Source: Microbacterium sp. Leaf159 (lineage in GTDB: Bacteria > Actinomycetota > Actinomycetes > Actinomycetales > Microbacteriaceae). Taken from it: a stretch of 64,000 nt of DNA. The notes under the pieces are model-generated. The model was given only the letters and a program-made list of their open reading frames with translations, did no database searches and was not told where the DNA came from. Position 1 is the first letter of the stretch. Each line of letters opens with the position of its first letter. Location of the stretch: contig NZ_LMOU01000002.1 of NCBI RefSeq assembly GCF_001423615.1, positions 253,573-317,572 of the forward strand, in the 5' to 3' direction. Below are positions 197 through 45,839 of this stretch, piece by piece. A program made the translations under genes and the position numbers.

Positions 197-1852
<1,656 letters not shown>

Positions 1853-1879
1853 TTAGCACTCAGAGTGAGAGAGTGCTAA
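1853..1879. promoter_or_regulatory. CIRCE operator (HrcA binding site)
   Basis: TTAGCACTC at 1853-1861 and GAGTGCTAA at 1871-1879 are separated by 9 nt. This matches the CIRCE consensus exactly. It lies 37 bp upstream of the groL start, so groL should be repressed by HrcA and released on heat shock. HrcA itself is not encoded in the window. Confidence 0.95.
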
Positions 1880-1938
1880 CGCCATTCTGGCACTCGACCC
1901 CATCGAGTGCAAGCTGCGCGGAGGGACTGCGGGGTGGT

Positions 1939-3915: not shown

Positions 3916-4320
3916 ATGTCGTACAGCGTGGACAAGACCGAAGAAGAGTGGCGCGAGGAGCTCGGCGAGGAGCAGTACGCCGTGCTGCGCGAAGCCGCGA
4001 CAGAGCGTGCGTGGACGGGCGAGCTGCTCGACGAAGGCCGTGCGGGCCTCTACACGTGCGGGGCGTGCGGCGCCGAGCTGTTCAAGAGCGGCACGAAGTT
4101 CGACTCCGGATGCGGATGGCCGAGCTTCTATGAGTCGATCCGCCCCGACGCCGTGCAGCTCATCGAGGACACGACCCTCGGCATGGTGCGCACCGAGGTG
4201 CGCTGCGCGAGCTGCGGCTCGCACCTGGGCCATGTCTTCCCGGATGGCTTCGGCACGCCCACCGGCGACCGCTACTGCATGAACTCCATCGCGATGAACT
4301 TCACGCCCGAAGAGTCGTGA
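3916..4320 (+). CDS. msrB: Peptide-methionine (R)-S-oxide reductase MsrB
   Basis: The 134-residue enzyme reduces methionine R-sulfoxide in proteins. The zinc site is formed by C48, C51, C97 and C100. GCGWPSF lies at 65-71, with the likely resolving C66, and the catalytic cysteine is C121 in RYCMNS. The start at 3916 has an AGGAGG site 6 nt upstream. An in-frame extension further upstream is open but runs antisense through the DUF2332 gene and was rejected. The stop codon overlaps the GTG start of the nitroreductase gene, so the two genes are co-translated. Confidence 0.97.
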   Translation: MSYSVDKTEEEWREELGEEQYAVLREAATERAWTGELLDEGRAGLYTCGACGAELFKSGTKFDSGCGWPSFYESIRPDAVQLIEDTTLGMVRTEVRCASCGSHLGHVFPDGFGTPTGDRYCMNSIAMNFTPEES

Positions 4321-29532: not shown

Positions 29533-31694
<2,162 letters not shown>

Positions 31695-31698
<4 letters not shown>

Positions 31699-32672
31699 GC
31701 TCGCAGTCGAGCGCCCAGGCGACGCGTTCGAAGTGGACGGACAAGGCCGTGTACGCGGCCGGTGCGGTCGTCTGGCGACTCATCGACGGCAAGCTGCGGA
31801 TCCTGCTGATCCACCGCACGAAGTACAAGGACATCACCCTTCCCAAGGGCAAGGTGGACCCCGGCGAGATGCTCGCCGAGACCGCCGTGCGCGAGGTGCA
31901 CGAGGAGACCGGCATCCGCGTCTCGCTCGGTGTGCCGGTCGGCGTGAGCCGCTACCACCTGCCCTCGAGCAAGCAGAAGGTCGTGCACTACTGGGCGGCC
32001 GAGGCCACCGCCGACGCGATCCGCGCCTCGACCTTCGTGCCGAACCGCGAGATCGCCGCACTCGAATGGGTGAGCGTGAAGAAGGCGCGCGCCCGTCTGA
32101 GCTACCCCGTCGACCTCGAGATCCTCGACTTCTTCGCGAAGCTCGTCGATGACGGCGTACTGCGCACGTTCCCGATCATCGCGCTGCGTCACGCCAAGGC
32201 GCTCTCACGGTCGGACTGGGACGGTGCGGATGCCGCGCGTCCGCTGACCGACCGCGGGCGGCAGCAGGCCGCGTCGATCGTCGCCCCGCTGCAGGCCTTC
32301 GGTGTGCGCAGGATCATCACGAGCGACGCCGTGCGCTGCGTGCAGACGGTCAGGCCGCTCGCGAAGGCGCTCGATCGAAAGACCGTCAAGACGGCGAAGA
32401 TCAGCCAGGATGCGTGGGAGGACGGCGAGGACGACCTGCGCTCGGTGATCGGCCGCCGCGTGCGCGCGGGCAAGCCCGCCGTGCTGTGCAGTCACGGTCC
32501 GGTGCTTCCCGGCATCCTCTCCGAGATCGCGCTCGCGACGGGCACCATCCGTGGCTCGTACGTGAGCAGCGCGGCAGACCTCGAGCCCGCCGCCTTCTCG
32601 GTCGTGCACCTGTCGGCATCCAACCCGGGTTCCGGGATCATCGCGATCGAGACGCACATCCCCAAGATCTGA
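31695..32672 (+). CDS. NUDIX hydrolase / histidine phosphatase fusion, MutT1-like
   Basis: The 325-residue protein has two domains. Residues 15-150 form a NUDIX hydrolase with the box [23 protein letters not shown] (positions 52-74). Residues 170-325 form a histidine phosphatase with [13 protein letters not shown] and SHGPVLPG. This is the architecture of mycobacterial MutT1, which removes 8-oxo-guanine nucleotides and can act on dinucleoside polyphosphates. The gene is coupled to ppk through an ATGA overlap, as in mycobacteria. Confidence 0.92.
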
Positions 32673-32737
32673 CCGCTCGTCGAGCGGCCTCGGGACACGA
32701 GTGCGCGCCTGGGGTGCACCCCAGAGAGACGCGCGCC

Positions 32738-32759
32738 GTTCACCTTCCGTTCACCTGCG
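32738..32759 (+). promoter_or_regulatory. PHO box upstream of pstS
   Basis: Two tandem 11-bp units, GTTCACCTTCC and GTTCACCTGCG, both with perfect GTTCACC cores. A further GTTAACC lies at 32772-32778. The pair sits 28 bp upstream of a TAGCGT -10 box. This is the classic arrangement for activation by PhoP/RegX3 under phosphate starvation. Confidence 0.85.
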
Positions 32760-32786
32760 CGGGAGAGTCTCGTTAACCGCCGCACA

Positions 32787-32792
32787 TAGCGT
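32787..32792 (+). promoter_or_regulatory. -10 box of the pst operon
   Basis: TAGCGT, with the PHO repeats just upstream. It also lies 6 nt before an in-frame GTG at 32799, so a leaderless, 15-codon longer PstS is conceivable. Confidence 0.6.
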
Positions 32793-32843
32793 CACTGTGT
32801 GCCCTGCACCGGGCCCCACCCATCCAAGATCGAAGGATCCACA

Positions 32844-33944
32844 GTGAAGATCTCCCGAATCGCACGAATCGGCGCCATCGGCGCCGTCGCCGCTCTCGCA
32901 CTCGCCGGCTGTGCCGCGAACGAAGGCGGCACGGGCTCCACCGACGCGCCGAGCGAGTCCACCCTCTCCGGCACCATCGAGGCCACCGGAGCCTCCTCGC
33001 AGGAGGCCGCGCAGCAGTCCTGGGTCGCCGCGTTCCAGACCGCCAACCCCGACACCACGGTGAACTACACCGCGACGGGTTCGGGCACCGGCCGCGAGAA
33101 CTTCATCGCCGGCTCCTCCAACTTCATCGGATCCGACCGTGCGTTCAACGCCGACGAGATCGCGGCGGGCGGCTTCGGCTCCTGCACCTCCGACGAGATC
33201 GTCGAGATCCCTGTCTACATCTCGCCCGTCGCCGTCGCGTTCAACCTCGAGGGCATCGACACGCTGAACCTCGACGGCGAGACCATCGCCAAGATCTTCT
33301 CCGGCGCCATCACCAACTGGAACGACGCCGCCATCGCGTCGCAGAACGAGGGCGTCGAGCTCCCGGACCAGGCGATCGTCCCCGTGCACCGCGCAGACGC
33401 CTCCGGCACGCAGGAGACCTTCACCAAGTACCTCAGCGCCGTCGCCCCCGACGTCTGGACCTACGAGGCCAGCGACGAGTGGCCGCTGTCGACCGGTGAG
33501 GCCGGAGACGGCACCTCGGGCGTCGTCGACGCGATCACCAACGGTGTCGGCTACATCGGCTTCGCCGACGCGTCGCGCACAGCGGACCTCGGTCAGGTCG
33601 CCGTCGAGGTCGAGGGCGAGTACGTCGCGTACTCCGCCGAGGCCGCCGCGGCGCTCGTCGAGGCCTCGCCGCTCGAGGAGGGTCGCCCCGACCACGACCT
33701 CGCGTTCGCCGTCGACCCGGCCGCAGCACCCGCCGGCTCGTACCCGATCGCGCTCGTCTCATACCTCATCGGCTGCGTCGACTACGACGACGCCGAGACC
33801 GCAGGCCTCGTGAAGGCGTACTTCGAGTACGTCGCATCGGCCGAGGGCCAGGATGCCGCCGCCGAGGCCGCGGGCAGCGCGCCGATCTCGGACAGCCTGC
33901 GCGACCAGATCAACACGGCGATCGACGCGATCGTCACGGAGTGA
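32844..33944 (+). CDS. pstS: Phosphate ABC transporter substrate-binding lipoprotein PstS
   Basis: The 366-residue protein has a lipoprotein signal (GAVAALALAGC, cysteine near residue 22) and the periplasmic-binding fold with phosphate ligands in TGASSQEAAQQSW, GSGTGRENFIAGSSNFIGSD and HRADASGTQETF. It captures phosphate outside the cell. The GTG at 32844 has a GAAGGA site upstream. An in-frame GTG 15 codons earlier fits the leaderless spacing and cannot be excluded. It is the first gene of pstSCAB. Confidence 0.95.
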   Translation: MKISRIARIGAIGAVAALALAGCAANEGGTGSTDAPSESTLSGTIEATGASSQEAAQQSWVAAFQTANPDTTVNYTATGSGTGRENFIAGSSNFIGSDRAFNADEIAAGGFGSCTSDEIVEIPVYISPVAVAFNLEGIDTLNLDGETIAKIFSGAITNWNDAAIASQNEGVELPDQAIVPVHRADASGTQETFTKYLSAVAPDVWTYEASDEWPLSTGEAGDGTSGVVDAITNGVGYIGFADASRTADLGQVAVEVEGEYVAYSAEAAAALVEASPLEEGRPDHDLAFAVDPAAAPAGSYPIALVSYLIGCVDYDDAETAGLVKAYFEYVASAEGQDAAAEAAGSAPISDSLRDQINTAIDAIVTE

Positions 33945-33980
33945 CCGACGGCTCAGCCCACAGCTGAGCCCCGGTCCGAC

Positions 33981-34023
33981 GCCCCCGGGTGTCGGTCGTA
34001 GGACAAGACCGACACCCGGGGGC
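33981..34023 (+). terminator. Stem-loop between pstS and pstC
   Basis: A perfect 17-bp GC-rich stem (33981-33997 with 34007-34023) with a 9-nt loop and no T run after it. It is more likely a partial terminator or 3'-end protector that keeps pstS mRNA above pstCAB than a full stop, since pstC starts 48 nt later with no clear promoter. Confidence 0.7.
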
Positions 34024-34070
34024 ACCCGCATGAAAACCCCGAAAGTCCCTCAGAGCCTGGAGTCGCTCCG

Positions 34071-35039
34071 ATGACCACAACCTCAACGGGTCCCGATACC
34101 ACCCGTTCCACCGGGACGCGCCCGCAGCTGCGCCGACGGGGTGACCTCGTCTTCTCGGGCACCGCGCTGGCAGCGGGAATCATCATCCTCGTCACGCTCG
34201 CAGCGGTCGCCGTCTTCCTCATCGTGCAGGCGATCCCGGCTCTGTCGGCAGACACCTCGAACAACCACATCCTCGAAGGACAATCGTTCCTCTCGTGGGT
34301 CTGGCCCTTCGTCTTCGGAACACTGTGGTCGAGCCTCATCGCTCTCGTCATCGCCGCACCGGTCGCGATCGGGATCGCGCTCTTCATCTCGCACTACGCC
34401 CCGCGCCGCCTCGCCGGATTCCTCGGTTACATCATCGACCTGTTGGCCGCCGTGCCGTCGGTCGTCTTCGGCCTCTGGGGCGCCCTCACCTTCGCGCCGA
34501 TGCTCGTGCCCTTCTACAAGTGGCTCAACACGAACCTCGGCTGGATCCCGATCTTCAGCGGAACGCCCTCGGGCACCGGAAAGACGATCCTCACGGCATC
34601 CCTCGTCCTCGCGGTGATGATCCTCCCGATCATGACCGCGATCTGCCGCGAGGTGTTCCTGCAGACCCCGAAGCTGCACGAGGAGGCCGCGCTCGCGCTC
34701 GGCGCCACGCGCTGGGAGATGGTGCGGATGGCCGTGCTCCCCTTCGCACGCAGCGGAATGGTCTCGGGCGCCATGCTCGGCCTCGGCCGCGCGCTCGGCG
34801 AGACCATGGCCGTGACACTCGTGCTCTCGCCTCTCGGCATCATCACGTTCAACCTGATCAACCCGGAGAACCCCACGACGATCCCCGCGATCATCGCGCT
34901 GCGGTTCCCCGAGGCCCACGACGAGGGCGTCAACACGCTCATCGCGGCGGGTCTGATCCTCTTCATCGTCACCTTCGCGGTCAACTTCGTGGCCCGCTGG
35001 ATCGTCTCGCGCCGCGCCGAGTTCTCGGGAGCCAACTGA
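34071..35039 (+). CDS. pstC: Phosphate ABC transporter permease PstC
   Basis: The 322-residue permease has about six membrane helices and the ABC-importer coupling loop (TPKLHEEAALALGATRWEMV). Family marks are the SALSAD region, FLSWVWPFVFGTLWSS and GLGRALGETMAVTLVLSP. It pairs with PstA in the membrane. The pstA gene begins 1 nt after its stop. Confidence 0.95.
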   Translation: MTTTSTGPDTTRSTGTRPQLRRRGDLVFSGTALAAGIIILVTLAAVAVFLIVQAIPALSADTSNNHILEGQSFLSWVWPFVFGTLWSSLIALVIAAPVAIGIALFISHYAPRRLAGFLGYIIDLLAAVPSVVFGLWGALTFAPMLVPFYKWLNTNLGWIPIFSGTPSGTGKTILTASLVLAVMILPIMTAICREVFLQTPKLHEEAALALGATRWEMVRMAVLPFARSGMVSGAMLGLGRALGETMAVTLVLSPLGIITFNLINPENPTTIPAIIALRFPEAHDEGVNTLIAAGLILFIVTFAVNFVARWIVSRRAEFSGAN

Positions 35040-35040
35040 C

Positions 35041-36150
35041 ATGACCGCCACACTCACGCCCTCCCCCTCACCTTCGTCCGTCGTCGCCCCCGTGCACACC
35101 ACCTCGGCGGGCCACCTGCCCAAGTGGGCACCGTGGGCGCTGCTGCTGGTCGCATTCGTCATCTCTGCGACGATCTTCGCGTTCATGAACGCCGGCGGCG
35201 ACCCGGCCGACTTCAACATCGCGCTCACGCTCGTGGTCGGCCTCGTGTTCTACATGGTGCTCATCTTCGTGATCTCCACCGTGGTCGAGAGCCGCCGCCA
35301 CGCGATCGACCGGCTCATGACCGCGCTCGTGTCCGGCGCCTTCGTGGTCGCGCTCCTCCCCCTCATCTCGCTGCTCTACACCGTGGTCGTCAACGGCCTC
35401 ATGCGGTTCGACGGCGAGTTCTTCAGCTTCTCGATGCGCAACATCGTGGGCGAGGGCGGCGGCGCCGTCCATGCGATCTGGGGCACGCTCCTGATCACCC
35501 TCGGCGCGACGATCATCTCGGTGCCGATCGGCCTGATGACCTCGATCTACCTGGTCGAGTACGGCGAGGGTCGCAGGCTCGCCCGCGGCATCACGTTCCT
35601 CGTCGACGTCATGACCGGCATCCCGTCGATCGTCGCCGGTCTGTTCATCTACTCGGTGTTCGCGCTGATCGTCGGTCCCGGAACCCGGATGGGCATCATG
35701 GGCTCCCTGGCGCTCTCGGTGCTGATGATCCCGGTCGTCGTGCGCGGATCCGAGGAGCTGCTGCGCATCGTCCCGAATGAGCTCCGGGAGGCGGCCTACG
35801 CACTCGGCGTGCCGAAGTGGCTGACGATCATCAAGGTCGTGCTCCCGACCGCCATCGCCGGCATCCTGACCAGCATCATGCTCGCCATCTCCCGCGTGAT
35901 CGGCGAGACCGCGCCGCTGCTGCTCACCGTCGGAGTCGTTCAGGGCATGAACCTGAACATGTTCGGCGGGCAGATGGCGACGCTACCCGTGTTCTCGTAC
36001 ATGCAGGCGAAATACCCCGGCATCCCCGTCGATGCCTACCTCGATCGGGCATGGGCCGCCGCCCTCACCCTGATCGTGATCGTGATGGTGCTGAACCTGG
36101 TGGCACGCATCATCGCCAAGGTGTTCGCCCCCAAGATCAACGGCCGCTGA
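35041..36150 (+). CDS. pstA: Phosphate ABC transporter permease PstA
   Basis: The 369-residue permease is a PstA with an extended N-terminus of about 100 residues containing extra membrane helices. The core has [20 protein letters not shown], the coupling loop [20 protein letters not shown] and [17 protein letters not shown]. It forms the channel with PstC. Confidence 0.95.
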
Positions 36151-36185
36151 GCCGTCATACCCGACTGAACCAAAGGATCCCTCTC

Positions 36186-36965
36186 GTGTCCAAGAGCATC
36201 GAAGTCAACGACCTCAACGTCTACTACAGCGACTTCCTCGCCGTCGAAGGCGTCAGCATCGACATCAAGCCCAACACCGTGACGGCGTTCATCGGCCCGT
36301 CCGGCTGCGGCAAGTCCACGTTCCTGCGCACCCTCAACCGCATGCACGAGGTCATCCCCGGCGCCCGCGTCGAGGGCGAGGTGCTGATCGACGGCAAGAA
36401 CCTCTACGGTGCAGGCGTCGACCCCGTGCTCGTGCGTCGCCAGGTCGGCATGGTGTTCCAGCGCCCGAACCCGTTCCCCACGATGTCGATCAAGGAGAAC
36501 GTGCTCGCGGGCGTCAAGCTGAACAACACGCGCATGGCGAAGAGCGACCAGGACGCCCTGGTCGAGAAGTCGCTGCGCGGCGCCAACCTCTGGAACGAGG
36601 TCAAGGACCGCCTCGACCGCCCCGGCTCCGGCCTCTCGGGCGGACAGCAGCAGCGTCTGTGCATCGCCCGCGCGATCGCCGTGTCACCCGACGTGATCCT
36701 GATGGACGAGCCCTGCTCGGCCCTCGACCCGATCTCGACCTTCGCGATCGAGGAGCTCATCGCCGAGATCAAGACCCAGTACACCGTCGTCATCGTGACG
36801 CACAACATGCAGCAGGCCAGCCGCGTCTCCGACAAGACGGCGTTCTTCAACATCGCCGGCACCGGCAAGCCCGGCAAGCTCATCGAGTACGACGACACCC
36901 GCACGATGTTCACCACCCCGTCGGTGCAGGCCACCGAGGACTACGTCTCGGGCCGCTTCGGATAA
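36186..36965 (+). CDS. pstB: Phosphate ABC transporter ATP-binding protein PstB
   Basis: The 259-residue ATPase has Walker [11 protein letters not shown]-loop VFQRPNPFP, signature [16 protein letters not shown], Walker [14 protein letters not shown] and the H-loop [10 protein letters not shown]. The ending YVSGRFG is the standard PstB C-terminus. GTG at 36186 is preceded by an AAAGGA site. It closes the pstSCAB operon. The phoU gene is not here but 12 kb away beside senX3. Confidence 0.96.
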
Positions 36966-36999
36966 GCATCCGCTCATCGACTCCGCTCTGCCGCCGCTT

Positions 37000-37081
37000 G
37001 GAAAACCCAGACCATCGTGTCCCACAGCCGCGCGTCGACTCCTCGACGCGCGGCCGGGGATACCGACGGTCTGGGTTTTCC
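37000..37081. repeat. Large nested palindrome downstream of pstB
   Basis: The outer arms GGAAAACCCAGACC (37000-37013) and GGTCTGGGTTTTCC (37068-37081) are exact inverted repeats. Inside lies a second exact inverted repeat, GCCGCGCGTCGA (37027-37038) with TCGACGCGCGGC (37043-37054) and loop CTCC. The spacer between the two stems is partly paired as well. The outer arm ends in TTTTCC, so it could end pstB transcription, but an 82-nt cruciform-like element is far larger than the other terminators here. Confidence 0.75.
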
Positions 37082-37192
37082 CGTCGATGACTGGGCCTGC
37101 ACTTCTGGGTGACAGGATGCGCTACGCACAGAACTTGGGAGAACACAGGATTTCTCCGGTCGGTGACGACGGCGATCACCCATCGTCTTCGG

Positions 37193-37272
37193 ATGACGTT
37201 CACCCGAGCAGACGCCGCTCTCCGCACACTCGGCCGTATAGCGCGCACCTCTGAACTGAAACGTCTGGGGGG
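37193..37272 (+). other. Out-of-frame 5' part of the AbiEi/DUF559-type gene
   Basis: From the ATG at 37193 the frame encodes MTFTRADAALRTLGRIARTS followed by ELKRLG. This is the first helix pair of the winged helix that should precede the downstream protein. At the run of six G residues (37267-37272) the frame would have to shift to continue as VTESELTRAVRSGEV. With one G fewer the two parts read as one protein of about 279 residues. It is therefore either a real frameshift or a sequence error. Confidence 0.65.
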
Positions 37273-38033
37273 TGACAGAGTCCGAACTCACCAGGGCCGT
37301 GAGATCTGGGGAGGTCATCCGGGCCCGCCAGGGTGTGTACGCGCTCGCTGACGTTCAGGCCGTCATCGTCCACGCGGCCTCGCACGGCGGCACGGTGGGA
37401 TGCTGTGCCGCCGGGCTCCTGCACGGCCTCTGGATCCTCGAGGCACCGCCGGAATGTCATGTCTGGATGGGGACGGCCGGAACCCCTCGCTCCTCCTGCG
37501 AGGACTGCCACATCCATTGGGACGAGGGAAAAGTCGCCGTCGGCGCACCTCCGCCGGTCCGGAATGTACTTCTGCAGATCTCACGCTGCGCCACGGAAGA
37601 CACGTTCTTCGCGGCATTGGAATCGGCCCTGCGGCAGTCGTTGCTCCGAGCCAGGGATCTGACATGGCTCGTGGTGCATCTCCCCATCGCGATGAGGTGG
37701 CTCGTCGCCTTCGCGCGAGCGGATGCCGACAGCGGCCTGGAGTCGCTCCTCCGTCTCCGGCTGTACCGCCTCGGCATAGAAGCCCGGCCTCAGGTGTGGA
37801 TCGCCGGCGGGGGAGAGGTGGACTTCGTCGTCGGAGCGCGCCTGATCATCGAAGCCGATGGACGCGCGAACCACGACGGCGGGGGTCTGAGGGCGAAGGA
37901 TCTTCAGCGAGACGCAGCCGCCGCCGCACTGGGCTACCAGACCCTACGTTTCACGTACGCGATGATCGTGCACGATTGGCGGGCGGTTGTCGACGCGATC
38001 GACGGTGCGCTGCTCCGGGACGGGCATCGATGA
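37272..38033 (+). CDS. AbiEi-type winged-helix / DUF559-like nuclease-fold protein, probably frameshifted at its 5' end
   Basis: The 253 codons from GTG 37272 begin inside a winged helix (LTRAVRSGEVIRARQGVYAL). The C-terminal domain resembles Vsr/DUF559 nucleases: ESLLRLRLYRLGI, then VDFVVGARLIIEADGRANHD, with the acidic residues expected for metal binding. Such proteins are scattered in actinobacterial genomes as orphan antitoxin-like genes; no toxin gene is next to it. The start has no ribosome site, and the missing N-terminal helices are encoded just upstream in the other frame. Confidence 0.7.
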   Translation: MTESELTRAVRSGEVIRARQGVYALADVQAVIVHAASHGGTVGCCAAGLLHGLWILEAPPECHVWMGTAGTPRSSCEDCHIHWDEGKVAVGAPPPVRNVLLQISRCATEDTFFAALESALRQSLLRARDLTWLVVHLPIAMRWLVAFARADADSGLESLLRLRLYRLGIEARPQVWIAGGGEVDFVVGARLIIEADGRANHDGGGLRAKDLQRDAAAAALGYQTLRFTYAMIVHDWRAVVDAIDGALLRDGHR

Positions 38034-38136
38034 GAGGGGACTCCGAGAGCGATGGCCGACGCCCCGGCGCGTCGTCCGGCGCCACACCGCTGAGGCCGCG
38101 GATCATCTGCGTTTTCCGAGGCCGCCGAGGCGACGC

Positions 38137-39021
38137 TCAGTCTCGGGGCGAGAGCAGGTACCGGTTCAGCTCGGCGGTGAGGGCGTGGTCGACGGGCAGG
38201 TCGACCCCGTCGACGGCGGTGATCGGGGCGGCGAGCCGGACGCTCGAGACCAGCCAGGCGGCATCCGCGCGCGGAAGATCGGATGCCGGAACCTGACCGT
38301 ACTCGGCGTCGAGACCGCGGGTGGCGAGGTACTCGTAGACGCTGAGCTGGGTGGTGCCGTGCAGGATGCCGCCGTTGGGCGCCGGGGTGACGAATCGACC
38401 GCCGATGCGGAGGATCAGCGAGGCGGTGGGCGCCTCGAGCACGAAGCCGTCGCGGGAGAGGAAGATCGCGTCGTCGGCGCCCCGCCGGTGCGCTTCGCGC
38501 AGCGCCGCCATGTTCACCGCATACGAAAGGGTCTTGGCGCCGAGCAGCAGCCATGGCGCGTTCTCGGCGACATCGAGGTCGTAGCCTCGGTCGAGCGTGA
38601 CGACGCGGATCCCGCGCTCCCGCACCGCGGCGAAATCGGATGCCGGTGCCGCCGTGACCCACGCGGTCGGAGTGGGTCCGTGCTCGACGCCTCGGCTGAG
38701 GATGAGCTTGATGACGTACTCGCCCTGCTCGCAGTGGGCGGCGGCCTGCTCGATGGCTTGACGCCACTGCGTCTGGTTCGGCAGCGGCAGGTCGCAGAGC
38801 TGCGCGGAGTGGGCGAGCCGCTCGAGATGAGGGATGACCTCCTGCGCGTGCCCGTCGACGACGCCGATCGATTCGAAGACGCCGTCACCGCGCTGGGTGC
38901 TCAGCTCCCTCACGCTCAGTGCAGGCGCTGCCGCATCGACGAGCGTGAAGCTGTCGGCGAAGTCGGAGCGGTCCGCGTCCGCAGCAGCCGGATCGATCAT
39001 CAGAGCAAAGCGCCGGGTCAT
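38137..39021 (-). CDS. pabC: Aminodeoxychorismate lyase-like class IV aminotransferase
   Basis: A 294-residue PLP enzyme of fold type IV. K163 in WLLLGAKTLSYAVNM is the cofactor lysine. GDGVFESIGVVDG near 45-57 and the phosphate-binding GILHGTTQLSVYEYL near the C-terminus complete the site. The likely job is releasing pyruvate from aminodeoxychorismate to give p-aminobenzoate for folate; a branched-chain or D-amino acid transaminase is less likely. No pabA/B is adjacent. Confidence 0.85.
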   Translation of the reverse strand: MTRRFALMIDPAAADADRSDFADSFTLVDAAAPALSVRELSTQRGDGVFESIGVVDGHAQEVIPHLERLAHSAQLCDLPLPNQTQWRQAIEQAAAHCEQGEYVIKLILSRGVEHGPTPTAWVTAAPASDFAAVRERGIRVVTLDRGYDLDVAENAPWLLLGAKTLSYAVNMAALREAHRRGADDAIFLSRDGFVLEAPTASLILRIGGRFVTPAPNGGILHGTTQLSVYEYLATRGLDAEYGQVPASDLPRADAAWLVSSVRLAAPITAVDGVDLPVDHALTAELNRYLLSPRD

Positions 39022-39027
39022 GCTCCG

Positions 39028-39033
39028 AGCCTA
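39028..39033 (-). promoter_or_regulatory. Leaderless-type -10 box for pabC
   Basis: TAGGCT on the minus strand, 6 nt before the ATG at 39021. Confidence 0.55.
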
Positions 39034-39076
39034 GACTCCCGGGAATGGCCGCAGTGCGATCTTGTTACAATGGAAT

Positions 39077-39160
39077 GGCCGGGCCGCATAACCCCGGGCT
39101 CCAATTTTTGCCGCTACGAGCGGCCTTCCGCCGAGAGGCGTTCTTGCGGCCCGGTCTTTT
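39077..39160 (+). ncRNA. Candidate small RNA of about 84 nt
   Basis: A TACAAT hexamer at 39066-39071 is followed after 5 nt by an 11-bp closing stem: GGCCGGGCCGC (39077-39087) with GCGGCCCGGTC (39146-39156, one G-U pair). TTTT follows at once. Inside are two more hairpins: GCCGCT-ACG-AGCGGC (39110-39124) and CGCC-GAGA-GGCG (39129-39140), plus an unpaired AATTTTT. Promoter, compact multi-stem fold and U-tailed stem together suggest a short transcript. I do not recognise the family. It could also be only a terminator for the convergent gene. Confidence 0.5.
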
Positions 39161-39211
39161 CCTGTCCGGGGCCGGAATCTCGGCCGTCTGGCTCAGGTTG
39201 GCGCCGCAGGC

Positions 39212-39841
39212 TCAGGACAGTGCGTCCATCCGCCACAGCACCGCAGAGGCCGACAGATCCTGCGCATAGCTGCTCAACCGCAGCGCCCTCGTGGTGAGTT
39301 CGCTCGCGCGGGCGGGCTCGGTCGGCTCGTAGTCGTCGGCCGTGTGCGTCGCACCGGACGCCTGCACGCGGCAGAACGCCGCAGCACGGTCGAGCGCCAC
39401 AGCGAAGTCGCCGCGGAAGGCGCCGCGCAGGATCGTGTCGATGAGCGCGACGAGCTCGTCGGGGTTGGCCGGCACCGGGGCGCCCGCGATCACCGCATCC
39501 ACCGAGGAGAGCTCCACGCGTCCCCGTTCGTAGAGCAGCGCAGCGGTGTGCGGGTCGCCATGGATCGCAAGCTGCAGGATGTACAGCCGCCACAGCGCGC
39601 CGGGAAGAGTGCGCGACGGCGCCTTGGACCACAGCTCGGCGATCTCGTCGATCCCGTGCTCGTCGGTGAACGCGACGAGGCGGTCGGCGCTCACCCCGCT
39701 CTCGTCGGCGCGCACACGGGCCAGCAGAGCGGATGCGGTCGCATGCGCGATCCTCGTCTCCTCGGCAGGGTCATGGCTGCCGACGATGTTGTCGAAGGCG
39801 CTGGTGGGCCGGCGGACCGGCCGGGAGAACTGCTCAGGCAT
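39212..39841 (-). CDS. Conserved actinobacterial protein of unknown function
   Basis: The 209-residue, mostly helical and acidic protein has no signal peptide, membrane helix or catalytic motif that I recognise. Its centre (LPGALWRLYILQLAIHGDPH, AALLYERGRVEL) looks like a helical-repeat bundle. Proteins of this type are sometimes labelled RNA polymerase subunits in databases, but nothing in the sequence supports that. A TACCCT box 6 nt before the ATG supports the start. Confidence 0.7.
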   Translation of the reverse strand: MPEQFSRPVRRPTSAFDNIVGSHDPAEETRIAHATASALLARVRADESGVSADRLVAFTDEHGIDEIAELWSKAPSRTLPGALWRLYILQLAIHGDPHTAALLYERGRVELSSVDAVIAGAPVPANPDELVALIDTILRGAFRGDFAVALDRAAAFCRVQASGATHTADDYEPTEPARASELTTRALRLSSYAQDLSASAVLWRMDALS

Positions 39842-39847
39842 CAGTCC

Positions 39848-39853
39848 AGGGTA
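39848..39853 (-). promoter_or_regulatory. Leaderless-type -10 box for the 39841 gene
   Basis: TACCCT on the minus strand, 6 nt before the ATG at 39841. Confidence 0.55.
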
Positions 39854-39911
39854 CGCGCCATCCGCGACGTCGGGCGTGCGAGGCCAGGCTGCCGGGATCG
39901 GGCGCCCGCGG

Positions 39912-40709
39912 TCACGCGGTGGGGATCACGACGACGGGGTCGGACGTCGGGGAGCCCGAGGGCGACCCTCCGGCCTGCTCCACCGTCACGGCGATCACAT
40001 CACCCGCGTGCATATCGCCGGCGAGCACCGCGGTCGCGTCTCCGCCGTCGGCCGCGAACACACCGGCCGAGACCGGGGTGTCGCCGCGGACGTACCAGAG
40101 TTCGTAGGTCTCGTCCTCGGAGAGCGCCGGGATGCCGTCGGTCACGAGGACCGACTTGCCGAGCGACGCGGACCAGTGAGCGGTCGCCGTTCCACCGCTC
40201 TCGAGCGAGACGCTGGCCTGCTGCGCGTCTCCGGCGGCCTGGATGTCCTCCAGGGCGACGACGCTCGCCGGGCGGTTCAGGTACGTGTTGATCGCGGCTG
40301 CACCGACACCCACGCCGACGAGGAGCGCGAGGCACGCGGCGAGCGCGAAGAGGATGCGCAGGCGACGGACCGGGGCCTTGGGAGTGGATTCTCCACCGAG
40401 CGGCGCCGGCGCGGCATCCGCAGCCGAGGGCTCCTCGGGCACGGTGTCGGGCACGGAGGTGGTCTGGATGACGTCGCCGCCCTGCGGGGTCACGGCGATG
40501 CGTGCGAGGAGCGCTGCGCGGATCTCCGGCGACGGAACGGCCGGAGCGGCTCCGCCGGAAAGGAGCGACGCGCTGTCGGCATCGGTGTCCGCGATGCGCT
40601 GCCACTCGGGGTGCACGGCGAGTGCCGCGTGGTAACGCTGCTGGTCGTCGGGCGACAGTGCATCGAGTGCTGCTCCTGCCGCGAGTTCCGCGAATTCCTG
40701 CTCGTTCAT
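39912..40709 (-). CDS. rskA: Anti-sigma-K factor RskA
   Basis: The 265-residue protein has an N-terminal anti-sigma domain (EQEFAELAAGAALDALSPDD), one membrane helix near 122-142 (ILFALAACLALLVGVGVGAA) and an extracellular RskA domain ending DMHAGDVIAVTVEQAGG with the SLGKSVLVTDGIPAL segment. It holds SigK at the membrane until regulated proteolysis frees it. It overlaps sigK by 4 nt. Confidence 0.93.
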   Translation of the reverse strand: MNEQEFAELAAGAALDALSPDDQQRYHAALAVHPEWQRIADTDADSASLLSGGAAPAVPSPEIRAALLARIAVTPQGGDVIQTTSVPDTVPEEPSAADAAPAPLGGESTPKAPVRRLRILFALAACLALLVGVGVGAAAINTYLNRPASVVALEDIQAAGDAQQASVSLESGGTATAHWSASLGKSVLVTDGIPALSEDETYELWYVRGDTPVSAGVFAADGGDATAVLAGDMHAGDVIAVTVEQAGGSPSGSPTSDPVVVIPTA

Positions 40710-41305
40710 GCTGTCACCCCCATGGCTGTCCTCAGGCGCGAGAGTCCATCTCGCATCCGTGTCTTGATCGTCCCCAGCGGTGCTCCCACGAGCACCGCGA
40801 CTTCATTTTGACTGTATCCGCCGTAGTAGGCCAGTACGAGGGCCTCGCGCTGTGCCTCGGGAAGGCCCGAGAGAGCGTGAACGACCTTCTCGCCCTCGAT
40901 GCCCAGCTCCACCGTCTCCGCGACACTGTCGTGCGCGACTCCGATATCCCTGAACCCGGCCCGCACATCCCTGTCCGCGCTGGACTGGGATGCCCGCACC
41001 CGGTCGACCGCACGACGGTGCGCGATCGTCATCACCCAGGTTCTTCCCTGCCCCTTGTTCGGAGCGAACTTGGAAGCGGATTGCCAGATCTCCAGAAAAA
41101 CTTCCTGAAGCACCTCTTCGCTCTGAGAGCGGTTCACGAGTACACGGAGGATCAGACCGAAGACCCTCGAGGAGAGCGAGTCGTAGAGCTCCGCGAATGC
41201 ACGCTGGTCACCGTCGCCGATGCGAACGAGCAGGTCAGCGACAGCATCCTTTGCCGTACCGTCTTCGGGTACGTCCATCCCATCGATGACCATCTCTACC
41301 AGCAT
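40706..41305 (-). CDS. sigK: ECF sigma factor SigK
   Basis: A 199-residue ECF sigma factor. Region 2 is AFAELYDSLSSRVFGLILRV through EEVLQEVFLEIWQSA and RTWVMTIAHRRAVDRVR. Region 4 is LPEAQREALVLAYYGGYSQN followed by the helix-turn-helix LVGAPLGTIKTRMRDGLSRL. It is co-translated with rskA. The divergent fasciclin gene carries a SigK-like promoter, which points to the same regulon as in mycobacteria (MPT70/MPT83). The first of two near ATG codons is used. Confidence 0.94.
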   Translation of the reverse strand: MLVEMVIDGMDVPEDGTAKDAVADLLVRIGDGDQRAFAELYDSLSSRVFGLILRVLVNRSQSEEVLQEVFLEIWQSASKFAPNKGQGRTWVMTIAHRRAVDRVRASQSSADRDVRAGFRDIGVAHDSVAETVELGIEGEKVVHALSGLPEAQREALVLAYYGGYSQNEVAVLVGAPLGTIKTRMRDGLSRLRTAMGVTA

Positions 41306-41451
41306 GCCGCATCCACATTGCTTTCTCGTGCAACCGCCACCCGAAAGTGACGGAAATGAGTCCTCTTAAGTGCTGTTCCTCGGATGCTGTTCGCTGCGGC
41401 CCTCGAAACGGATTGGATCAGGCGGCTCCGAAAATTCTTTTGCACTTTCTC

Positions 41452-41479
41452 CCATCCGATCTCGGAGGGGCTCCGAACA
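41452..41479 (+). promoter_or_regulatory. SigK-like promoter of the fasciclin gene
   Basis: CCATCC at 41452-41457 and CCGAACA at 41473-41479, 15 bp apart, resemble the mycobacterial SigK promoter pattern CCATCC and CCGAATA. The site lies 50 bp upstream of the fasciclin ATG, in the region divergent from sigK. Confidence 0.65.
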
Positions 41480-41528
41480 GCCATCAACGCCACGGAGAGG
41501 CCGTGGCAAAGTTCTGAAGGAGCTCGAG

Positions 41529-42185
41529 ATGTTCAGCACCAAGAAGAAGGTCACCGCAGCCATCACCCTCGGCCTTGCGAGCGCATTCCTGCTCTCCGCA
41601 TGTTCCATGGGCGGAACCACCGACGAGCCGTCGGAGTCGATGGCACCGGAGTCGTCCGAGACGACCGCTCCCGAGACGATGGATCCCGCCGCGGACCTGG
41701 TCGGCCCCGGTTGCGCCGCATACGCAGAGGCAGTGCCGGATGGCGCAGGTTCGGTCGAGGGCATGTCTCTTGACCCGGTCGCCACCGCAGCATCCAACAA
41801 CCCGCTGCTCACCACCCTGGTCGCGGCAGTCAGCGGCCAGCTCAACCCTGACGTCGACCTCGTCGACACGCTGAACGGCGACGAGTTCACCGTCTTCGCA
41901 CCGGTCGACGACGCCTTCGCGAAGATCGACCCCGCCACCATCGAGGCTCTCAAGACCGACAGCGCCACGCTGAGCTCGATCCTGACGTACCACGTGGTCC
42001 CCGGCCAGATCGCTCCCTCTGACATCGATGGCACGCATGCCACCGTTCAGGGTGCTGACCTCGAGGTCACCGGCAGCGGCGACTCGCTGATGGTCAACGA
42101 CGCGAACGTCATCTGCGGTGGCGTCAAGACCGCCAACGCGACCGTGTACCTGATCGACTCGGTGCTGATGCCCCCGGCTGAGTAA
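41529..42185 (+). CDS. Fasciclin-domain lipoprotein (MPT70/MPT83-like)
   Basis: The 218-residue lipoprotein has a signal with lipobox LSAC (C25), a Ser/Glu/Thr-rich linker and one FAS1 domain (about 75-218). Typical FAS1 marks are [18 protein letters not shown] and [12 protein letters not shown], with the ending [15 protein letters not shown]. In mycobacteria such proteins are exported under SigK control. The ATG at 41529 has an AAGGAG site; the longer open frame upstream runs through the promoter. Confidence 0.94.
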
Positions 42186-42253
42186 GCCATGGGACGCCGA
42201 GGCAGGACTCGGCACACACCATCTCGCCACTCAGGGGGAGGACGGTGAGATGG

Positions 42254-42293
42254 AGAAGGAGCCGCTGGCGATACGTCGTCAGCGGCTCCTTCT
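42254..42293 (+). terminator. Terminator after the fasciclin gene
   Basis: A 14-bp perfect stem (42254-42267 with 42280-42293) with a 12-nt loop, followed by TTTG. With the tRNA that follows, this accounts for the 311 nt between the fasciclin and PfpI genes. Confidence 0.85.
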
Positions 42294-42315
42294 TTGCGCC
42301 CTAGACTGGAGGGGC

Positions 42316-42388
42316 GGGCCTCTAGCTCAGTTGGCAGAGCATCGGACTTTTAATCCGCGGGTCGTGGGTTCGAGCCCCACGGGGCCCA
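42316..42388 (+). tRNA. tRNA-Lys(UUU)
   Basis: A complete cloverleaf: acceptor GGGCCTC with GGGGCCC (one G-U pair), D-arm AGCTCAGTTGGCAGAGC, anticodon loop CTTTTAA with anticodon TTT, T-arm GTGGGTTCGAGCCCCAC and discriminator A. CC follows, but the full CCA is not encoded. Confidence 0.96.
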
Positions 42389-42496
42389 CCGTTATCACCG
42401 CCGCGTCCATCCGGCCACCCCCTTCACGGCGGCCGCCGCGTGCGAGAGTGTCGAGTCATCCCCACCGGGACCTCCACCTCCACGAAAGGACGCATC

Positions 42497-43045
42497 ATGG
42501 CGACTCTCACCGACAATCGAGTGGCATTCCTTGCCACGGACGGATTCGAGGACAGCGAGCTGACCAGTCCGTGGGAAGCGGTGCAGGGCGAAGGCGCGAG
42601 CGCCACGCTGATCGCCCCAGAAGGACTGCAGATCACCGGCAAGAACGGTCATGTCCAGCACGTCGATCTCACCTCGGACGCCGCGACAGCCGATGAGTTC
42701 GACGCGCTCGTGCTTCCGGGCGGCGTGGTGAACGCCGATCACCTGCGGCTCGACAAGCCATCGATCGAACTCGCCCGCTCGTTCTTCGAGCAGCACAAGC
42801 CCGTCGCCGTGATCTGTCACGGCGCCTGGATCCTGATCGAGGCCGGCGTCGTCGACGGACGCACGCTCACGAGCTACCCGAGTCTCGCGACCGATCTCCG
42901 CAACGCCGGAGCGACCTGGGTCGACGAAGAGGTCGTGGTCGACGAGGGCCTTGTCTCGAGCCGCACCCCCGACGACCTGCCCGCGTTCAACGCCAAGCTG
43001 ATCGAAGAGGTCGCCGAAGGCCGTCACGCCGAGCAGACCGCGTGA
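42497..43045 (+). CDS. DJ-1/PfpI-family protein (YhbO-like)
   Basis: The 182-residue protein has the PfpI fold with catalytic C107 in VAVICHGAW (nucleophile elbow) and the acidic E18 in TDGFEDSEL. LVLPGGVVNADHLR is also typical. Members act as glyoxalase or deglycase-like stress proteins; protease activity is doubtful for most. The start follows GAAAGGA by 6 nt. Confidence 0.93.
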   Translation: MATLTDNRVAFLATDGFEDSELTSPWEAVQGEGASATLIAPEGLQITGKNGHVQHVDLTSDAATADEFDALVLPGGVVNADHLRLDKPSIELARSFFEQHKPVAVICHGAWILIEAGVVDGRTLTSYPSLATDLRNAGATWVDEEVVVDEGLVSSRTPDDLPAFNAKLIEEVAEGRHAEQTA

Positions 43046-43075
43046 CCTGATCGGAGCGCATCCGGCGGTCCGGTG

Positions 43076-43597
43076 TCAGGCGCCTGCGCGCGCCCTGTGA
43101 CGCCGGACCGCCGCTCTGTTCGCACAGCGCACCGAGCAGAAGCGCTGCCTGCCGTTCCGCGTCACGTCCACGACGACATTCGTGCACGGCGAGGCCTCGC
43201 AGCGTCCGAGGCGATCCATGCCTCGCGTGACGAGGTGCAATGACGTGCCGACCGCGAAGATCGCGCGAAGCACATACGGCAGTGACTGCACGTCGTCTCG
43301 GTAGTGCAGGTGCCATCCCTCACCGTCGTGATTCGTGAGGCGTGGATAGGCCGCGGCCTTCGCCATCTGCGCATTGAGCACTTCGGCTCTGGCCGCGGGA
43401 TCCCGCTCGTCGACGATCCGCAGCCAGTCGTCGACGACGTCGCGGATGCGCTCATGGTCGTCGGGCGCAGGCGGGAACGTCATCGTCATGCCCATCTCGA
43501 GCGTTCTCTCCTCGATTCCGGCGCGATCGGCGGGAAAGTCGTCGGCGAGCGATGCGGCCAGCAGCACCGCATACTCTCCGTAAGGGTTGAGATGCAT
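43076..43597 (-). CDS. CGNR zinc-finger domain protein
   Basis: The 173-residue protein ends in a CGNR-type zinc finger: cysteines in GRCEASPCTN and RFCSVRCANRAAVRRHRAR form the site, although the name motif is CANR here. The N-terminal part (AVLLAASLADDF, WLRIVDERDPAAR, GWHLHYRDD) is the ABATE domain typical of these proteins. They are thought to be stress-linked transcription regulators. The gene diverges from the His-rich small gene. Confidence 0.88.
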   Translation of the reverse strand: MHLNPYGEYAVLLAASLADDFPADRAGIEERTLEMGMTMTFPPAPDDHERIRDVVDDWLRIVDERDPAARAEVLNAQMAKAAAYPRLTNHDGEGWHLHYRDDVQSLPYVLRAIFAVGTSLHLVTRGMDRLGRCEASPCTNVVVDVTRNGRQRFCSVRCANRAAVRRHRARAGA

Positions 43598-43622
43598 AAG
43601 GCCATTACATCACGCTGGATGC

Positions 43623-43835
43623 ATGACCTCACTGCACACCCTCCCGATCCCCCGTCAGACCACCCTCGCGCACGAGCATGAGCACGAGCACTCCTGGCTC
43701 GTCGACTCGCGGCATCCGACCAGCGAGGGCATCGTCCTGTACGTGCGGTGCGGCGGATGCGGGATGCACAGGGTGGATCTGCAGACTCACCCGCAGGTGC
43801 CGCCGGCTGCGCTCAGCCGAGAGACCTCGGGCTGA
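43623..43835 (+). CDS. Small His-rich protein with CxxC motif
   Basis: The 70-residue protein has an alternating LAHEHEHEHSW segment and a VRCGGCGMHRVDLQ segment. The histidine cluster and the two Cys form a plausible zinc or other metal site, much like a half zinc ribbon. I do not recognise the family. The ATG at 43623 lies 25 bp from the divergent CGNR start, so both must share a small promoter region. Confidence 0.65.
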   Translation: MTSLHTLPIPRQTTLAHEHEHEHSWLVDSRHPTSEGIVLYVRCGGCGMHRVDLQTHPQVPPAALSRETSG

Positions 43836-43843
43836 ACGTCCGC

Positions 43844-44476
43844 TCAGACCACGACGATCTCGCCGTTCCGCGGCACCCAGGCCGGCGCCCCTGCCCGCAG
43901 GAAGGCCAGCGCAACGCCTCGCCCGTTCCGCTCGATCGAGTCGGACACCTGCACATGCAGATGCGGCTCTGTACTGTTGCCGGAGTTGCCGCATTCTCCG
44001 ATCGCGTCCCCCGCATCCACCCGATCACCGGGCCGGGGCCGCACGCTCCCTGCCCGCAGGTGCGCGAGCAGCACCACGGCTCCGTCGGAGCAGATGACGA
44101 TGTGATTCCCGGCGATCGCCGGTGCACCCCCACGAATGCGCGATCGCTGGGTGAGTGCGTATCCCAGTTGCGCCCCCATCGAGCGCCGCGCCACGTGGTC
44201 GACCTCTCCGTCGTGCACACGCACCACCTCGCCGGACAGCGGCGCGAGGATCGCACGTCCGAAGCCGACGAACGCGTCAGGAGGCTCGGTCCCGAAGACG
44301 CTCCCGAGGCTGCGGGGCGCACTGCGGCCGTTCGCGTCGACCGGCACGAAGTCGATCGCGTGCGAGCTGCCGAACAGCTCCGTGCCGTGACTGGGCACCC
44401 GCGACGCCGGGCTGTTCTGCACGATCCACCGCCCGGTGAAGGGCAGAACCAGCTCGACCGGCGGTTGAGCGCTCAT
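43844..44476 (-). CDS. M23-family (LytM-like) peptidase domain protein without signal peptide
   Basis: The 210-residue protein has the M23 zinc-site pattern: the histidine and aspartate in SSHAIDFVP and the HxH in STEPHLHVQ, with the GNHIVICSDGAVVLLAHL core. Most M23 enzymes cut peptidoglycan outside the cell, but this one shows no signal peptide or membrane helix. It might act in the cytosol or on another substrate, or be exported differently. It overlaps the DUF1697 gene by 4 nt. Confidence 0.85.
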   Translation of the reverse strand: MSAQPPVELVLPFTGRWIVQNSPASRVPSHGTELFGSSHAIDFVPVDANGRSAPRSLGSVFGTEPPDAFVGFGRAILAPLSGEVVRVHDGEVDHVARRSMGAQLGYALTQRSRIRGGAPAIAGNHIVICSDGAVVLLAHLRAGSVRPRPGDRVDAGDAIGECGNSGNSTEPHLHVQVSDSIERNGRGVALAFLRAGAPAWVPRNGEIVVV

Positions 44477-45000
44477 GCGGTCAGCTCGGCGATCTTTCTG
44501 ACCGTGCGGAGGTTGCGCGCGGTGCCGGCGACACCGAGAGCACGATCGAGGACGACTTTCGTGAGCTTCGTGCTGTGCACGCCGCCCTCGGCATAGTCGA
44601 TCCACAGGTCGTCGCCGACGAGCGCGATCCGCTCCCCCGCCACGAGACGCTGCTGCAGCGCTTCGACGGCCCCGAGTGCTGCCGGACCCTCGAGGAACAT
44701 CGCGTGCAGCATCTTCTCGGTCGCGCCGCTGAAGGGGTGCGCCTGCAGAGCCCGCACGAGTGCCTCGTGCGTCCGCAGGATCACCGGAGTGTCGACGCCG
44801 AACTCCCGGGCGATGAGGGCGCGGACCTCTTGACACGCGGATGCCGGATCGTCCGGATGCTCGCACAGGATGTTCCCGCTCGCGATGTAGGTCGACACCT
44901 CCCCCAGCACCGGGACGAGCGCCTCGCGCAGCTCGGCCATCGGCACACGATTGCGCCCGGAGACGTTGACCGCCCGTAGCAGGAGCACGCTGCGCGTCAC
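44473..45000 (-). CDS. DUF1697 domain protein
   Basis: The 175-residue protein starts LLLRAVNVSGRNRVPMAELR, followed by STYIASGNILCEHPD, both hallmarks of DUF1697. The family fold is known from structures, but the function is not. It is the middle gene of three overlapping genes (pncA, DUF1697, M23-like). Confidence 0.9.
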   Translation of the reverse strand: MTRSVLLLRAVNVSGRNRVPMAELREALVPVLGEVSTYIASGNILCEHPDDPASACQEVRALIAREFGVDTPVILRTHEALVRALQAHPFSGATEKMLHAMFLEGPAALGAVEALQQRLVAGERIALVGDDLWIDYAEGGVHSTKLTKVVLDRALGVAGTARNLRTVRKIAELTA

Positions 45001-45578
45001 GCAGCGCCGCTCTCGACCAGCGCGGCGCCTGCATGGGCGAGCTCGGCGAGCGCCGCCGCGCTCGGCTCGGGGGCGACACCGGCGATCAGATCGGTGAGGA
45101 TCCGCACCTGTACGCCATGTGCGATCGCGTCGAGCGCAGACGCGCGGACACAGTGGTCGGTGGCGACCCCGACGACATCCGCGGTGAGCACGCCCGCGCC
45201 CGTCAGAATCGCACCGACGGTGTCGCCCGTCTCGGTCGCACCCTCGAACATCGAATACGCCGGCACACCCTGGCCCTTCTGCACGTGATGTGTGACGGCA
45301 TCCGTCACCAGCAGCGGGTCGTACTCCGCACCCGCAGTGCCCGCGACGCAGTGCGCGGGCCAGGTGTCCACGAAGTCAGGGTCGTCGGCGAAGTGCCCCC
45401 CGTTGTCACCCGAGGCATCGTGCCAGTCCCTCGACGCGACGATCACGTCGTAGTCGCCGGCATGCGCCGCGAGGAAGGCGGACACGGCGGATGCGACGGC
45501 ATCGCCGCCCGCGACGGCCAGCGCACCGCCCTCGGTGAAGTCGTTCTGCACATCGACGATCAGAAGCGCTCTGCTCAT
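44997..45578 (-). CDS. pncA: Nicotinamidase (PncA-like)
   Basis: The 193-residue enzyme hydrolyses nicotinamide to nicotinate for NAD salvage. The catalytic triad is D9 (VDVQNDF), K101 (HHVQKG) and C143 (TDHCVRAS); D51, H53 and H62 are the metal ligands. The ATG at 45578 is supported by TACCCT 7 nt upstream. An in-frame extension of 40 codons lies before the promoter and is rejected. It leads the pncA-DUF1697-M23 operon. Confidence 0.95.
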   Translation of the reverse strand: MSRALLIVDVQNDFTEGGALAVAGGDAVASAVSAFLAAHAGDYDVIVASRDWHDASGDNGGHFADDPDFVDTWPAHCVAGTAGAEYDPLLVTDAVTHHVQKGQGVPAYSMFEGATETGDTVGAILTGAGVLTADVVGVATDHCVRASALDAIAHGVQVRILTDLIAGVAPEPSAAALAELAHAGAALVESGAA

Positions 45579-45585
45579 GTCTTCG

Positions 45586-45591
45586 AGGGTA
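45586..45591 (-). promoter_or_regulatory. Leaderless-type -10 box for pncA
   Basis: TACCCT on the minus strand, 7 nt before the ATG at 45578. Confidence 0.55.
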
Positions 45592-45677
45592 CGCCGGGAG
45601 GGGCGCGCGCGGGCTGCTGACCCGTCGAGTGGCGCCACCGCGATGGAACGAGCACGCGCCTCACGCAGGAAACCAAA

Positions 45678-45710
45678 AGGCCCTGTGATGTTGTTCACAT
45701 CACAGGGCCT
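45678..45710 (-). terminator. Terminator of tRNA-Thr(CGU)
   Basis: A 13-bp perfect stem (45678-45690 with 45698-45710), followed on the minus strand by TTT. It lies 5 nt after the tRNA 3' end. Confidence 0.85.
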
Positions 45711-45715
45711 GCTGG

Positions 45716-45788
45716 AGCCGCTTGTCAGAATCGAACTGACGACCTTTTCATTACGAGTGAAATGCTCTGCCGACTGAGCTAAAGCGGC
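45716..45788 (-). tRNA. tRNA-Thr(CGU)
   Basis: A complete minus-strand cloverleaf. The acceptor GCCGCTT pairs with AAGCGGC, the discriminator is T, the T-arm reads GTCAGTTCGATTCTGAC, and the anticodon loop CTCGTAA has anticodon CGT. CCA is not encoded. Confidence 0.96.
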
Positions 45789-45839
45789 GCGATCATCGAT
45801 ATTACCCGTTCCTGGGCCGCACCGCGAATCGAGCCCGAC

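Follow-up and report, generated by a model that had tools for sequence, protein, structure and literature searches.

To our knowledge, few regulatory RNAs are well understood in actinomycetes, and these bacteria have no Hfq. The 6C RNA and other C-rich actinobacterial small RNAs are thought to pair with mRNAs, at G-rich ribosome-binding regions. Ms1 is about 300 nt in length, far longer than the RNA described here. The small RNA scr2952 of Streptomyces coelicolor was reportedly first described by Vockenhuber in 2011. According to the accessible part of a later article, its expression was confirmed, and over half of the Streptomyces examined showed it as conserved (PMC8388888). SCO2952 is given as HelD in the available text of PMC8655204, and Ms1 as a small RNA identified in the majority of Actinobacteria in that of PMC9130861.

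The ECF sigma factor of the thiol and heat-stress response is named SigR in Streptomyces and SigH in mycobacteria and corynebacteria. In the portions of the two articles that are accessible, the published SigR consensus is GGAAT-N18-19-GTT (PMC9205884), and the same consensus is given for Corynebacterium SigH, GGAAC marking promoters that are shared with SigE (PMC10012870).

A predicted small RNA gene conserved across the class

The window, i.e. the whole stretch of 64,000 nucleotides of Microbacterium sp. Leaf159 that was analysed, contains an 84-nt unit at 39077-39160 (+), flanked by a divergent pabC-like gene (38137-39021, minus strand; Aminotran_4, 156.2 bits) and by the 3' end of a minus-strand gene (39212-39841). 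The original prediction had placed a small RNA gene there, with a TACAAT box, an 11-bp closing stem, two hairpins with a GAGA and an ACG loop, and a TTTT tail. All these elements were present as described, and the gene itself was borne out by its wide conservation, by covariation in its stems, by the constant distance of its promoter elements and by a bias to the plus strand. The small structured RNA, with predicted ends, would be about 80-84 nt long, as judged from its fold, blastn, the covariance model and covariation.

A blastn search with 136 bases around the RNA gave matches in 58 of 58 genomes (its own, 34 of the same genus and 23 from 19 other families of the order). In the alignment of these 58 genomes, the region from the -10 through the end of the closing stem aligned as a block, and the flanks hardly aligned. 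Covariance searches of more than 40 genomes were run with strict filters, at which weak matches are lost; under these conditions, a first model built on 49 of the 58 order sequences (alignment A1, in which the identical rows L005, L011, L019, L023 and L024 and the near-relatives L009, L026, L027 and L052 were omitted) matched 90 of 148 genomes of the class at an E-value of 0.01, and a refined model made from 66 class-wide sequences (alignment A3, chosen loci, with L111, L112 and many loci of the own genus omitted) matched 157 of 246 class genomes at an E-value of 0.001, 89 being without a match. Within one family, the refined model matched 33 of 61 genomes (E 0.01). Two samples of the phylum gave matches in 10 of 149 and 14 of 198 genomes, every one of them inside the class. 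A pattern scan returned at least 120 stretches; the 80 listed included Nocardia, Rhodococcus, Gordonia, Williamsia, Nakamurella, Enemella and several Mycobacterium species, and among the matches listed Rhodococcus jostii and R. erythropolis had two loci each.

For counts over many loci, a set of 205 distinct RNAs was used, which fit the core pattern with a stem of at least seven pairs; this sample is uneven because 86 of its loci come from a pattern that was derived from Mycobacteriales and mostly selects them. Long-P2 variants (L111, L112, L156-L162) and other non-fitting loci were omitted from it.

In the long-P2 variants, a longer stretch takes the place of the short P2 hairpin, and L111 carries two such copies about 1.2 kb apart (3001-3115 and 4175-4296, minus strand). 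Several genomes hold more than one copy of the RNA: three each in G133 and G369, two each in G118, G084, G078, G189, G352, G346 and G357, and two in G495 that lie about 180 bases apart (C1:1926889 and 1927071).

In conclusion, the putative RNA gene is widely conserved across the class, being kept from Microbacterium to Streptomyces, Nocardia, Rhodococcus and some Mycobacterium species.

The RNA is predicted to fold as a closed three-way junction

The 84-nt fold had an energy of -42.9 kcal/mol, compared with -32.5 +/- 3.5 for 200 shuffled sequences (z -2.96), one of which folded equally well. Taken alone this excess is modest; conservation in 58 of 58 genomes together with covariation makes a chance origin untenable.

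The fold is a closed three-way junction with helices P1, P2 and P3. The closing stem P1 pairs 39078-39088 with 39145-39155 over 11 pairs, to which the minimum-energy fold adds the pair 39077-39156, and two-sided changes were observed in 10 of 10 counted P1 pairs. Inside it a short helix, P1b, would join AA at 39090-39091 with UU at 39141-39142, that is, the bases just before CCCC with the bases just after P3. Alignment columns 23 and 81 were paired in 60 of 66 sequences, and over the 205 RNAs the pairing score of P1b was 7.73, compared with 5.74 +/- 0.11 (maximum 6.09) in 500 shuffled re-pairings. P2 (39110-39124, GCCGC-UACGA-GCGGC) has a TACGA loop made of a U-A pair and an ACG triloop; one of its pairs showed 18 two-sided changes (CG/UA/GC) and three were invariant. 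P3 (39129-39140, CGCC-GAGA-GGCG) carries a GNRA-type loop, which across the 66 relatives was mostly GAGA, GUGA or GCGA, and in a few GACA, GACU or GUCA; one P3 pair had 2 two-sided changes and two were invariant.

Over the 66 sequences, 98.9% of the cells of P1, P2 and P3 were paired, and only 30-41% when the helices were slid by 1-3 columns. Two-sided changes affected 12 of 19 pairs versus 6.8 +/- 1.2 in shuffles, and 124 cells versus 27.7 +/- 4.3, controls in which the kinship between sequences is still present. The 66-sequence alignment leans to the structure because it was fitted to a covariance model; in the MAFFT alignment of 49 sequences, fitted to no structure, two-sided changes were found in 6 of 21 predicted pairs. 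Nearly all the support from covariation comes from P1, with one strong pair in P2, one weak pair in P3 and a remainder that hardly varies; as aligned here, the predicted helices P2 and P3 are too invariant for a good covariation test. The original prediction had named lack of conservation of the stems in relatives as what would speak against an RNA gene, and the stems proved conserved and covarying.

Helix cells contained 74 G-U and 2 A-C combinations out of 1250, and this excess of G-U over A-C points to the plus strand as the presumed RNA. A small protein gene was ruled out, since single-base differences in junction length between relatives would break any reading frame. The original prediction had seen no protein gene that explains the locus.

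The most conserved unpaired stretch is CCCCGGGCTCCA at 39092-39103 (CCCCGGG..CCA). The original prediction had singled out an unpaired AATTTTT stretch, which is indeed present; it was dropped as a functional stretch because it varies among relatives. The C-rich junction strand CCCCGGGCUCCA (39092-39103, +) is a proposed functional site on account of its invariance: over the 66 sequences the four C were kept in 66, the next two G in 66 and 64, and CA in 63 each. These counts were taken on alignment A3 because the core pattern of the 205-RNA set itself fixes CCCC. For the window sequence alone, a fold with a partly paired C-run has the minimum energy, and the consensus fold lies 4.2 kcal/mol above it.

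Two target tests were performed with this strand, both narrow, and both were negative. The exact 12-base complement occurred at one place in the own genome, the RNA itself (reversed control 4), and at 3, 3 and 4 places in three congeners, the RNA itself included (reversed control 5, 2 and 1). Within its own locus, the 5' region of sigH did not come out as the window that pairs best in any of 10 genomes.

Promoter elements upstream of the RNA

The TACAAT box (39066-39071, +) is a sigma-A-type -10 (TAnnnT), for which no TTGACA-like -35 was found in the window. The original prediction missed GGGAAT at 39041-39046 (+), the putative -35 of a SigR/SigH-type ECF promoter (GGAAT-N17-GTT) whose -10, GTT at 39064-39066 (+), overlaps TACAAT. 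The window copy has both GGAAT and GTT, with a spacer of 17, not 18-19. In the own genome, GGGAATN16-18GTTA was present four times, one of them being the promoter of the RNA (reversed control 1).

In the uneven set of 205 RNAs, GGAA[T/C]-N16-20-GTT was found within 95 bases upstream of 149, compared with 253 of 25650 background windows (1.0%). The element lay 48-62 bases from the core in 138 of the 149; its spacer was 18 in 118, 17 in 18, 19 in 11 and 16 in 2 (18 or 19 in 129 of 149), and its fifth base was T in 125 and C in 24. By group, it was found in 25 of 28 RNAs of the own genus, where it is kept although the spacers have diverged, in 2 of 2 from the rest of the own family, in 42 of 64 from the rest of the class and in 74 of 86 Mycobacteriales-pattern loci (69 of 80 among the pattern-scan matches listed). 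It was missing in 19 of 25 RNAs from other families of the order and present in 6. TAnnnT in the -10 region was found in 85 of the 205 RNAs (background 2.2% per 30 bases), among them 28 of 28 of the own genus and 20 of 25 from other families of the order, 17 of these 20 being without the ECF element. The ECF element stood without TAnnnT in 98 of 205. Of the 56 RNAs that lack it, 34 had TAnnnT and 22 had neither; by eye, several of these 22 were near misses, having for instance GAAAT in place of GGAAT, or GGAAC together with a changed GTT. These results strongly suggest a SigR/SigH-type promoter for the RNAs of the own genus and for the majority of those examined from beyond the order. The RNAs from other families of the order mostly have a putative housekeeping-type -10 instead, and in Microbacterium the two predicted promoters overlap. 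We infer the identity of the sigma factor from the motif.

The SigH family (TIGR02947) scored above its cut-off in 12 of 12 genomes tested, the own genome included. In 10 of the 12, again including the own genome (spacer 18), an ECF element was present no more than about 600 bases ahead of sigH; this count is without a control, so that one or two could be chance. G059 and G339 have SigH and no detected RNA, so that the RNA does not invariably accompany SigH.

In L073, L075, L077-L080, L133 and similar loci, a small extra hairpin seems to be inserted between the promoter region and the RNA, and in several of them the ECF element is about 77-80 bases from the core. On the other strand, pabC seems to be nearly leaderless behind a TAGGCT box (39021-39046, minus strand); because this box adjoins GGGAAT, the two promoters would form a back-to-back pair. 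The stretch GAGCCTAG recurs in relatives of the own genus.

The 3' end of the RNA and its neighbours

The RNA had been proposed to carry its own terminator. TTTT is present at 39157-39160, within a C/T-rich tail (39156-39166, +) that may act as a terminator tail, and the 10 bases at the stem end contained on average 4.86 T in 28 RNAs of the own genus. In other groups this mean was 1.5-3.5; outside the order, 55 of 150 RNAs (18 of 64 and 37 of 86) had a separate hairpin and a run of T downstream. A scan of the window for consensus terminators gave none. An own terminator is plausible in the own genus only.

The 209-aa protein of the convergent gene (39212-39841, minus strand) gave zero Pfam matches; in NCBIfam its best score was 15.1 bits, with a cut-off of 481, which is not a credible match. 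Its family was found in 78 of 246 class genomes, and the RNA was present in 77 of these 78 (the exception being G061); in the same sample, the protein was absent from 80 of 157 RNA-bearing genomes, which ruled it out as an obligate partner, and the gene, often adjoining the RNA, is dispensable for it. In 58 loci with a relative of this gene, the RNA was on the same strand downstream of it in 32, convergent in 25 and divergent in 1, a count in which a few places are present twice and flank extents differ. By eye, loci of the own genus were convergent in 23 of 24 and the others in the same direction in 31 of 34. Read on the minus strand, the stem has no T-run behind it. This, together with the mixed orientation, disfavours the reading of the stem as a terminator of the 39212-39841 gene, which had been put forward as the alternative to an RNA.

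The neighbours are wholly different in two Streptomyces loci (L095 and L096, assigned to Streptomyces by inference from an Rfam Scr5676 match), where the RNA comes directly after a HelD-like helicase gene and before a malic enzyme gene (Pfam on L095); they also differ in the Mycobacteriales loci examined. The flips in orientation, and the many RNA genomes without the protein, make the linkage look like an old neighbourhood and the RNA like a unit of its own.

About 1.5 kb from the RNA lies an ECF sigma factor gene (40706-41305, minus strand) with a weak SigH_actino match (38.7 bits); the adjoining gene at 39912-40709 (minus strand) presumably encodes its anti-sigma factor, of the SigK/RskA type.

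Search for known RNA families

The first description had left the fold unrecognised; no credible match was found in Rfam 15. In the part of the window searched (30000-48000), there was no match at the RNA up to an E-value of 5, and in 10 loci of relatives searched up to an E-value of 1 the sole overlap was Thr_leader in L095, which at 29.5 bits (E 0.18) stayed below its cut-off of 55. No 6C, F6, 6S-type or mini-ykkC Rfam match was found in the window or in these 10 loci. Two Rfam families considered as scr2952, RF02832 and RF02829, were rejected; they are Scr5676 and Scr4115, with matches at other places in Streptomyces genomes. The tmRNA that ARAGORN reported at 1610-2216 (+) has an unusual tag peptide and is probably a false positive.

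Discussion

The predicted fold, the strand, the class-wide conservation and the promoter elements at a fixed distance can all be read from the sequence itself. The explanation that we favour is a free-standing gene for a structured stress sRNA of about 84 nt, which would act in trans by pairing with mRNAs; as a whole we hold it somewhat likelier to be right than wrong, and the pairing step is its weakest part. In the own genus and in much of the class beyond the order, the ECF sigma factor SigR/SigH would transcribe the RNA, from a promoter that in Microbacterium overlaps a housekeeping-type -10, and the RNA would accumulate under disulfide or heat stress. Its conserved C-rich strand, CCCC(C/G)GG..CCA, would be exposed and could pair with G-rich translation-start regions of mRNAs, which would give the stress regulon a repressing arm, and the closed stem and the GNRA hairpin would stabilise the molecule.

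The near-invariant hairpins suggest a bound protein about as well as the C-rich strand suggests mRNA pairing. The hairpins and the C-rich junction might bind RNA polymerase, a ribosome-associated factor or an RNase in the way of 6S or Ms1, and not mRNAs, a possibility that we find rather doubtful. Near-invariance of most of P2, P3, parts of the loops and the junction strand in the 66 sequences goes beyond the needs of pairing and fits such a role, as does the finding of no recurring long exact complement of the C-rich strand; it is without a known partner, however, and 80 of the 157 genomes with the RNA lack the only protein family linked to it. An RNA that serves as a folded surface for binding a central protein would be under selection over nearly its full length, and one may picture a class-wide, SigR/SigH-driven thiol and heat-stress RNA that is 6S-like in this respect. 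This combination is improbable in our estimate, and we know of no SigR/SigH-driven protein-binding RNA shared across the class.

As to transcription, the main sigma factor might use TACAAT constitutively here, GGGAAT being incidental. TAnnnT in all 28 RNAs of the own genus and in 20 of 25 from other families of the order (17 without an ECF element) is in keeping with this, and so is the window spacer of 17; we nevertheless consider it unlikely, given the ECF element in 25 of 28 own-genus RNAs despite diverged spacers, the 98 of 205 RNAs that have this element without TAnnnT, and the missing TTGACA-like -35 in the window. That the structure is a leader, attenuator or terminator of pabC or of the 39212-39841 gene is highly improbable: the RNA is intergenic, and in the own genus its stem and T-rich tail are terminator-like, but pabC is divergent, the neighbours differ in the Streptomyces and Mycobacteriales loci examined, the orientation to the linked gene flips with no T-run on the minus strand, and a promoter element lies directly upstream at a fixed distance.

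If the favoured explanation, a stress sRNA transcribed by SigR/SigH, is true, the SigR/SigH response has an RNA arm. The presence of the RNA in laboratory species offers a ready system for a hunt for targets or partners, and the family is defined well enough that it could be added to Rfam.

Comparison with described RNAs and with the SigR/SigH regulon

The RNA resembles 6C RNA (RF01066), described in the accessible part of PMC8388888 as an actinomycete RNA class with conserved C-rich stretches. It differs in that 6C has two stem-loops each with six or more C, whereas here the C-run lies in a three-way junction. From the F6 sRNA of mycobacteria (RF01791) it differs by the type of sigma factor. 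As a family, it shares the promoter element GGAAT-N18-19-GTT with the SigR/SigH regulon (trxB, hrdD, moeB, rbpA and others), whose members named in the available text are, unlike it, protein genes (PMC9205884). In the main text of the open-access literature, as far as accessible, no SigR/SigH-dependent conserved actinobacterial sRNA was seen.

The closest described RNA is scr2952. Its name points to SCO2952, i.e. HelD, and the Streptomyces copy adjoins a HelD-like gene, so that this copy is probably scr2952, the two being compared by locus only and not by sequence. The accessible text of PMC8388888 states that confirmed RNAs are in Rfam, and the sole overlap at a Streptomyces locus here was the sub-cut-off Thr_leader; the S. 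lividans table of Rfam matches, in the part of PMC8079986 available, is without scr2952. Neither a class-wide family nor control by SigR is mentioned for scr2952 in the accessible part of PMC8388888, and no link of scr2952 to either appears in the literature as far as it was accessible. By Rfam, the RNA described here is a new family, presumably of the stress-sigma-controlled small RNA kind; it is widely spread in its class and often has a stress-type promoter, which the original prediction had not seen.
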